A DNA stretch of 64,000 bases, taken from contig JAAYVD010000154.1 of assembly GCA_012517355.1 (NCBI GenBank), positions 1 to 64,000 on the forward strand, in the 5' to 3' direction. How positions within the stretch are numbered: the first letter of the stretch is position 1; each line of letters starts with the position of its first letter. The notes beneath the pieces are model-generated. The model made no database searches, had not been told where the DNA came from, and saw nothing but the letters and a program-made list of their open reading frames with translations. The position numbers and the translations under genes are program-made. This document shows, piece after piece, positions 5,128 through 7,710 of the stretch. The stretch is from Candidatus Rifleibacteriota bacterium. GTDB lineage: Bacteria > Muiribacteriota > Ozemobacteria > Ozemobacterales > Ozemobacteraceae.

Positions 5128-7710
5128 ATGCACCGCGGAACCACCACCCAGCCCACCAGCATCCAAGAACTCATCATCATCCGGTATTTCATCATTCGGA
5201 CCAGTGGGCAAGGCTCCGTCGGCATGGCGTCCTCCCGGAAAACGATTGAGGGAGGGAGTCCCATGAACAGTCTGATGCGCATTTTCGTCCTGGCTTGCCT
5301 TTTCGCGACGGCCGCCATTCCGGCGGACGCCTTTTACCTGGTGACCCAGCGCGGTCAGCTGCCGCTCATGGAACAGCGGATCAAGGTGACGATCGACAAC
5401 CAGCTGGCGGTCACCACCATCGAGCAGACCTTCAACAACCCCAACGACACCACCGAGGAGGCGACCTACCGGTTCCCACTCGGGGAAAAGGCGTCGGTCC
5501 AGGAGTTCGGCCTGACCGGCACCGACGGGGTGCGGCGCGCCGGAGCCATCGAGGAAAAGAGCGAAGCCCAGGCGATCTACCAGAACGCGCAGAGCATGGG
5601 GGCCCAGCCAGCCATCGCCCAGCAGGCCGACCCCAACAGCTTCGAGACCAAGATCGGCACCGTGGCGGCGCGTTCCCGCAGCAAGGTCGACCTGACCTAC
5701 ACCGAGATCCTGCCCTACCACATGGGCAAGATCCAGTATTCCATTCCCCTCAACATCAAGGCCATCCAGGGCCACAACATGGACGTGGTAGCCGTGACCA
5801 TCGATCTGAAGGACCAGAAGGAGATCGTGGCGGTCGACTCGCCGACCCACAAGATCGCCGTGTCCAAGGTCGATGCCCACCACTGGCAGATCACCTTCGA
5901 GCGGTCCACCTGGCTGCCCGACACCGATTTCCAGCTCAACTACGAGGTGAAGGCCCAGAAGATCGGGTTCAACTTCCTGTCGACGCAGCCCGACCCCAAC
6001 GAGCCCGGGTATTTCATGCTGATGCTCGCCCCCCAGGAGGTCGTCGACGCCCGTGACATCGTCGCCCGCGACATCGTCTTCGTGATGGACGTGTCAGGCA
6101 GCATGAGCGGGTACAAGATCGACCAGACCAAGCAGGCGTTCAACTTCTTCGTCGACCAGCTCAACTCGGACGACCGGTTCGGGGTCATCGCCTTCTCCGA
6201 TTCCCTGCAGCCGTGGCGGGAAACCCTGGTGCAGGCCACCCGGGAGAACCGGCAGGCGGCCCGGGAGTTCATCGGGGCCCTGGGCGCCGGCGGCGGCACC
6301 AACATCCATGACTCGCTGGCGGCCGCGCGGCACCTGTTCCCCGAGGGAAAGACCACCAAGGCCATCGTCTTTCTGACCGACGGCGAGCCCACCGCCGGCA
6401 TCACCGACGCCAATGTCATCGCGCGCAGCATGCGCGAGGGGAATACCAAAAACATCCGCACCTTCGTGTTCGGCGTGGGCGAGAACCTCGACGCCCGCCT
6501 GCTCGACCAGCTGGCCCTGGAGAACTCCGGCCAGGCCGTCTACGTCCACGAGAACGAGCACCTGCAGGCCAAGCTGACCAGCTTCTACGAGACGATCAGC
6601 AAACCCCTGCTCGTCGACCTGGGCCTCGACTTCGGCAGCATCGAGATCAGCGAGATGTATCCGCCCCGGCTGCCCAACGTCTACAAGGGCTCGCAGGTGA
6701 TGGTGGTGGGCCGCTACAAGACCGGGGGCCAGACCACCCTGAAGGTGCGCGGCGTCCTGAACGGCTCGGCCCAGGAATACCCGCTGCCCGTCAGCTTCGC
6801 GAAGAACAGCCCCGACAACCGCATCGTGGCCCGGACCTGGGGCAAGATGAAGGCCGACTCCCTGATCGGCGAGATGCGGGCCTACGGCGACGACCCGGCC
6901 AGGAAGGCGGAAGTGATCCGGCTCAGCAAGACCTTCCAATTCACCACCCCCTACACCTCGTTTGTGGCCGTCTGCCCCGAGCAGGTGGCCCCGGCCCGCA
7001 ACGCCTCGCTGGACCCCTACCGCACCGCGCGCGGCGGCCGCCTGCCCAGCCAGCCGCAACCGGTGGCCGCGATGAACGTGCCGATGCCCCCGTCGAACGT
7101 GGTCATGCCCCCTTCGCCCGCCCCGGTGCAGAATATCACCGTGACCCGCACCACCGAGGCCAAGAAGGTCAGCCTGTGGGGCGCCTACAGCTTCCTGCCC
7201 GTCGCCCCCCTGCTGGTGCCCAACTTCCGCAAGGCCCGCGAGCAGGCGCGTGAGAAAGCCTGCTACGCCAACATGCGCGTCATCCTGGGCGCGGTCGAGA
7301 TGTACAACATGGACCACCAGGAGATGCTGCACGCCATCGACGAGCGCCACATCGCCGCCCTCCAGGGCAGCCAGTATCTGAAGTCCCAGATCACCCATCC
7401 CGAGACCGGGTGCGCCTACTTCACCGCGGGCGACCTGGCCAGCGACGGGATGATCGTCTGCGCCATCCACGGCGGGGTCGAGGACGGGGTCGAGTACGGC
7501 GGGGTCCCCGGGTCGCCCCGTTCCAACTTTTCGGTGACCGTCGTCGACAACACCTCGTGGGAAACCCGGATGTGGAACAAGTGCCTGCCGCTGATCGAGC
7601 TGGCCATCAACATTCCGCTGGTGCTGATCGGCCTGTGGTTCACCTGGGTGGTCTGCACCGCCCCGTTCCGCTGGCTGTTCAAGGCGGCCGCGGCGGACAG
7701 CGGAAAGTAG
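5128..7710 (+). CDS. VIT and von Willebrand factor A domain protein with pilin-like C-terminal part
   Basis: 860 residues from ATG 5128 (strong GAGGAGG site) or 815 from ATG 5263 (GGAGGGAG site). Only the second start puts a normal signal peptide ([18 protein letters not shown]) at the N-terminus, so it is probably the main product. Domains, numbered from 5263: VIT (about 25-150); vWA (about 268-450) with the MIDAS motif DVSGS near 276 and TDGEPT near 371; a Pro-rich linker (about 590-630); then [18 protein letters not shown] (644-661) and [17 protein letters not shown], which resemble the helix and start of the globular domain of pseudopilin-like proteins; a transmembrane helix at about 777-798. 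Likely a cell-envelope, metal-dependent binding protein. Shared sigma-54 control links it to the pilin operon. Confidence 0.85.
   Translation: [860 protein letters not shown]

Follow-up and report, generated by a model that had tools for sequence, protein, structure and literature searches.

Pilins are usually defined by a leader and an assembly helix, and in known modular pilins these two elements serve as the carrier to which functions are added. PilB from S. sanguinis, a bimodular type IV pilin that contains a vWA domain, has a class III leader that is cleaved, and all of the more than 1,200 modular pilins reported were detected through their N-terminal pilin motif (PMC8179133). In Caulobacter, the Tad minor pilin CpaL, a TadG ortholog for which a role as a mechanosensor was proposed, also combines a pilin module with a vWA domain (PMC12607857), and vWA domains are further found in the pilus-associated proteins PilY1 and PilC (PMC8179133). 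Here we analyze an 815-residue protein encoded at positions 5263-7710 of a 64,000-nucleotide window (contig JAAYVD010000154.1, positions 1 to 64,000) from a relative of Candidatus Ozemobacter (Riflebacteria). In this chimera, VIT and vWA domains precede an internal pilin head and a likely C-terminal membrane anchor. The original prediction had recognized a VIT-vWA protein fused to a pilin-like C-terminal part, and considered a vWA-pilin chimera to be undescribed, a view contradicted by PilB (PMC8179133) and CpaL/TadG (PMC12607857), in which a vWA domain is already linked to a pilin module. The chimera differs from these fusions in that the modules are in reversed order, the assembly helix is lost, an anchor is present at the C terminus and the head is spread across the genome. 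No description of this arrangement or of such a spread was found in the limited set of open papers searched, which covered Riflebacteria pilins, VIT-vWA proteins and pili, and pilin-like domains.

Domain architecture of the chimera

The protein is composed of the following segments:

5263..7710, + strand: VIT-vWA-pilin head-transmembrane chimera, 815 amino acids (open frame; orthologs in 15/24 family genomes)
5263..5331, + strand: signal peptide, residues ~1-23 (sequence; helix 3-18 in the model)
5371..5700, + strand: VIT domain, residues 37-146 (PF08487, E=2.6e-25)
6070..6561, + strand: vWA domain, residues 270-433 (PF00092/PF13768, E=1.6e-21)
6994..7164, + strand: disordered Pro-rich linker, residues ~578-634 (pLDDT <50)
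7165..7215, + strand: degenerate remnant of the pilin N-terminal helix with the conserved motif LWGAxGFxPxA, not transmembrane-like (ortholog comparison, KD19)
7216..7482, + strand: pilin head module, residues 652-740 (homology, profile and model)
7582..7653, + strand: likely C-terminal transmembrane anchor, residues ~774-797 (KD19 2.13; helix 766-813 in the model)

The VIT and vWA matches lie well above the Pfam gathering scores, and the vWA domain displays MIDAS-type motifs (DVSGS at 276, GGTN at 344 and TDGE at 372). The predicted fold resembles that of ITIH heavy chains (Foldseek 6fpy, TM-score 0.73 on the target). The VIT-vWA core and the ITIH-like fold are common to the chimera, ITIH heavy chains and TIGR03788 proteins, the pilin head being the extra element in the chimera; the score against TIGR03788 (marine sortase target) is 280.5 bits, below the cut-off of 551.65.

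Like PilB, the chimera combines a pilin-related module and a MIDAS-type vWA domain in one polypeptide. In PilB, however, an N-terminal pilin with its leader and full assembly helix is followed by the vWA domain, whereas in the chimera the vWA domain precedes an internal head, the leader and the assembly helix are absent, and a VIT domain and a C-terminal transmembrane anchor are present. CpaL/TadG shares the pilin-like module and the vWA domain with the chimera, but it is Tad-type, the pilin comes first, and a VIT domain is not reported. The chimera differs from PilY1 and PilC in that it has no Pfam match to the C-terminal PilY1 beta-propeller.

Homology of the head to the major pilin

The C-terminal region of the chimera aligns with the canonical major pilin of the host genome (C74:16695) with 59% identity (E=5.5e-35). 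The pilin likeness is far above chance and is, on sequence grounds, homology, which bears out the assignment of this part as a pilin or pseudopilin head; both pilin-like segments that had been named are present at residues ~644-683. A profile search against pseudopilins, suggested earlier as a check, points in the same direction. When the 18 heads of the host genome were used as the query, leaving out the N-terminal hydrophobic helix, eight PDB matches were obtained at E<=1, all of them GspG-type pseudopilins, which are weak (best E=0.0055) but uniform. A single-sequence phmmer search against the PDB retrieved GspG at no better than E=0.29. Among the NCBIfam models, pilin_ComGC (NF040999) matched with E=8e-5 and 22.7 bits, compared with a curated cut-off of 75, and the GspG model (TIGR01710) gave no match; a Pfam scan of the C-terminal part yielded nothing significant, the head being recognized by no Pfam model. 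In GspG and ComGC, the region that aligns with the chimera head comprises the latter half of helix alpha1 together with the beginning of the globular domain; the chimera differs from both by the lack of a leader and an assembly helix and by scores below both family-model cut-offs.

In the AlphaFold2 model of residues 620-815, the head is predicted with confidence (pLDDT ~88-97 over piece residues 41-120); it is formed by a long helix (residues 655-684), a short helix and two short strands, and contains C667, C717, C733 and H736. In the 18 aligned heads of the host genome the first and last Cys are invariant, the His is found in at least 90%, and in most of them a third Cys occupies either of two positions. 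This conservation suggests a disulfide or a metal site.

Loss of pilin-defining features and a likely membrane anchor

The class III leader (G|FxxxE) is absent from the chimera and from all 12 full-length orthologs compared, as are E5 and the full N-terminal helix (12/12). The missing leader and cleavage site had already been pointed out for the single protein. In the orthologs the helix is reduced to its last part, with the conserved LWGAxGFxPxA motif. Because the KD19 values of this remnant are 1.06-1.46, compared with 2.99 for the N-terminal helix of the major pilin, it is not transmembrane-like; the hydrophobic stretch noticed after the vWA domain does exist, but it is probably not a membrane helix. 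The C-terminal helix (KD19 ~2.0-2.4) is likely the membrane anchor. The pilin-like part does not extend to the C terminus; the head stops before the end and is followed by the conserved transmembrane anchor. Taken together, the signal peptide and the anchor predict a topology with the VIT-vWA part and the head outside and the C terminus inside, to which the charge flanks also lean, although they are not decisive.

Having lost the leader and all but a short part of the assembly helix, the chimera should not assemble as a pilin and, judged from its primary structure, it is not a pilin by the two tests that define one, leader and assembly helix. That it nevertheless represents a bona fide minor pilin within the filament is very improbable. 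The homology of the head and the existence of vWA-bearing minor pilins (PMC8179133, PMC12607857) speak for such a role, but there is no class III leader and no E5, the N-terminal helix is reduced and not transmembrane-like, and the head is internal with a transmembrane anchor after it.

A conserved two-gene unit

Directly downstream of the chimera is found:

7811..8776, + strand: obligate partner, 321 amino acids, polytopic membrane protein with a long C-terminal helical (coiled-coil-like) part (co-occurrence, adjacency)

The membrane helices of the partner are N-terminal, and the protein matched no Pfam or NCBIfam family, nor any PDB entry at a significant level. The chimera is present in 15 of the 24 genomes of its family, three copies being split or broken in the assembly. 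One copy of the partner occurs in each of exactly these 15 genomes, and none in the other 32 of the 47 searched; within the 24 family genomes, the chance of such an exact match is ~1 in 1.3 million with labels taken as exchangeable, a figure that is optimistic given the relatedness of the genomes. In the genomes checked, the two genes are neighbors and share a strand, although in G006 they are separated by two inserted genes.

For most of the remaining families in the phylum, the best matches to the VIT-vWA protein stop before the head. A VIT-vWA-head-transmembrane protein was found in one genome of another family (G036), where both the helix remnant and the partner gene are missing, and a different VIT-vWA protein also bears a head in G017; fusion or head replacement has, therefore, probably taken place more than once. 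The host genome encodes a second VIT-vWA protein (L147, G000:C96) that lacks a pilin head. The absence of the unit from 9 of the 24 family genomes would be in line with a neutral fusion relic devoid of function, but the head is kept in 12 full-length orthologs despite saturated synonymous sites, and the head-bearing proteins of the second family and of G017 also argue against a relic, which makes this the least probable of the explanations considered here.

Upstream of the chimera, a scan with the pattern TGGCAC-N5-TTGC, in which a site with at least 9/11 specified bases was counted as conserved, identified:

5084..5099, + strand: sigma-54-type promoter TGGCACGGTTGATGCT, 10/11 specified bases, kept upstream of the chimera in 9/12 genomes

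G006 has only a weak site and G007 and G014 have none, and the same scan revealed no consistent site for the major pilin. Directly 3' of the promoter lies an in-frame ATG at 5128 with a strong Shine-Dalgarno sequence (GAGGAGG). The orthologs favor the start at 5263 over this upstream ATG, and the stretch 5128-5262 (+ strand) could encode an extended N terminus or else a leader peptide.

Spread of detached heads

Profile searches of the genome sequences, on which all copy numbers are based, detected 29 copies of the head in the host genome at E<=0.001, of which 4 are preceded by GFxxxE and 25 lack a prepilin leader; 3-52 copies per genome were found in members of the family. In the host, the head is carried by lipoprotein, zinc-ribbon-transmembrane, Sel1-type, multi-head and polytopic proteins. 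In a related genus the leader motif is absent from 27 of the 34 sampled copies, many of which are followed by a C-terminal transmembrane helix, and a few copies keep the leader together with such a helix. Outside the phylum, head matches were obtained in 11 of ~150 genomes with 1-3 copies each, presumably ordinary pilins. Detached heads are missed by annotation that relies on the N-methylation motif, and no Pfam model covers the head of the chimera.

The heads lie at or near the protein ends in many carriers, and most carriers look exported or membrane-bound, as expected if the head were a sorting or secretion tag, read by the pilin/pseudopilin assembly system, that retains or delivers its carriers. 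We consider this improbable, however, as a C-terminal transmembrane segment follows the head in the chimera and in many g11 copies, and some heads are internal or repeated.

Among the individual carriers, the 1910-residue protein of L139 (G000:C124, - strand) has an internal pilin between membrane helices that keeps the G-F-x-x-x-E sequence. This polytopic protein is conserved (~1,780-1,940 amino acids; relatives in L162-L166, L067 and L068). Several genomes, though not every one, retain an intact prepilin motif GKGFRLAELM midway along the protein, and it may be asked whether the prepilin peptidase splits it into two. An exported protein of 340 residues (L141, G000:C169) is composed of three tandem degenerate pilin heads, and an exported 723-residue open reading frame (L142/L034, G000:C57) contains three separate heads, two of them without the N-terminal helix; a 994-residue protein in L148 (G017) resembles the latter. 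The lipoprotein of L042 (G000:C6:20370-20600, - strand; lipobox LTGC) carries an acidic linker rich in Thr along with a pilin head. In the proteins of L180 and L221 (G015), a complete prepilin leader is combined with a transmembrane helix that follows the head at the C terminus.

Lineage-specific matching of the head and the major pilin

The closeness of the chimera head to the major pilin is 0.624 within a genome, compared with 0.540 between genomes (15 genomes, permutation p<5e-5). Lineage-specific residues are common to both proteins, for example Q661/Q672 in genus g4, and S670/I672 along with a relocated Cys in G006. Codon identity at the shared residues is 0.473, no higher than the 0.496 expected from codon usage, and synonymous sites are saturated; recent gene conversion between pilin and chimera was, therefore, ruled out. 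The chimera heads do not group as one clade in the module tree, which is built on few columns. The genus-level matching may result from old conversion or re-fusion, or from slow coevolution. Polytopic copies display a similar but smaller closeness to the pilin of their own lineage, and distant copies display little.

A putative receptor tied to the pilus system

We tentatively favor the view that the chimera operates as a tethered adhesion or contact sensor that is linked to the pilus system, and not as a filament subunit. The signal peptide would direct the VIT-vWA part together with the pilin head across the cytoplasmic membrane, where the C-terminal helix would keep them anchored. Through its MIDAS, the vWA part would bind a ligand, and the head would provide a docking surface for the contact partners of the major pilin, either pilin subunits or the assembly machinery, while the coiled-coil partner (7811-8776) would couple the state of the receptor to the cytoplasm; docking and signaling are the steps that we infer. 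This proposal is based on the homology of the head to the major pilin combined with the absence of leader, E5 and full helix in the 12 orthologs; on the MIDAS-type motifs, the ITIH fold, the exact co-occurrence of the partner and the conserved sigma-54 promoter; and on the closeness of the head to own-lineage pilins, the lineage-specific shared residues and the exclusion of recent conversion.

Several observations weigh against the receptor. Within genera, the pilin of the same genome is no closer to the chimera head than that of a congener (permutation p=0.40), so that the matching holds at the genus level only and coevolution at the species level is not supported. A small number of ancient conversions or re-fusions could be enough to account for the matching, with no contact between the proteins, and distant detached heads do not track the major pilin. 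Several of the nine family genomes that lack the unit have the major pilin, and the unit is, therefore, dispensable for having pilins. Finally, a Foldseek search with the model of residues 620-815, which is dominated by the C-terminal transmembrane helix, returned no significant match; the structure prediction proposed as a check gave a confident helix-helix-strands head, the fold of which this comparison did not confirm.

As the main alternative, the head may have turned into a general domain outside the cytoplasm, with a structural or a metal/disulfide role and no longer tied to the pilus, its similarity to the pilin being explained by ancestry and occasional recombination. This is a real possibility, although we regard it as somewhat unlikely. 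The lipoprotein, Sel1, zinc-ribbon, three-head and polytopic carriers, the conserved Cys and His residues described above and the distant copies that do not follow the pilin are all in agreement with it. By contrast, the copies in the chimera, the polytopic and some zinc-ribbon proteins are closer to the pilin than a scaffold seems to need, and genus-specific changes are common to the pilin and these closer copies.

Genomic neighborhood

The following features lie on the opposite strand, upstream of the chimera:

4511..4526, - strand: sigma-54-type site upstream of the minor-pilin operon
3565..4458, - strand: minor pilin, PilW/ComGF-like (N_methyl), outside the conserved unit
2984..3559, - strand: neighboring minor pilin-like protein with a prepilin-type N terminus (sequence)

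The proposal that the chimera and the pilin operon are under the same sigma factor agrees with the presence of sigma-54-like sites upstream of both (5084-5099, + strand; 4511-4526, - strand). The proximity to a pilin operon, which was part of the same proposal, is particular to the host among the genomes compared, the conserved neighbor being the partner at 7811-8776. Relatives of the minor-pilin operon in two other genomes also have a sigma-54-like site, but lie elsewhere in the genome. Linkage to this operon was rejected as an explanation since the adjacency is not conserved in the genomes compared.

Implications for the Riflebacteria

Dozens of other exported proteins have acquired a copy of the head, and a filament subunit thereby seems to have become a general-purpose domain. 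It is conceivable, if unlikely, that in the Riflebacteria/Ozemobacteraceae the head was freed from assembly and spread, up to ~50 copies per genome, as a usually membrane-tethered extracytoplasmic domain, and that the copies closest to the pilin, among them that of the vWA receptor, which has a coiled-coil partner, remain matched to it by physically engaging the pilus system in a signaling or adhesion network of subunit look-alikes. The arrangement is the reverse of that of modular pilins, many times over, in that the head is kept whereas the carrier, leader and assembly helix, has been given up. Should the heads dock to pilins or to the machinery, they would constitute a ready natural set of probes for pilin-head interactions; if they do not, the fold of a filament subunit can become a common stand-alone domain.
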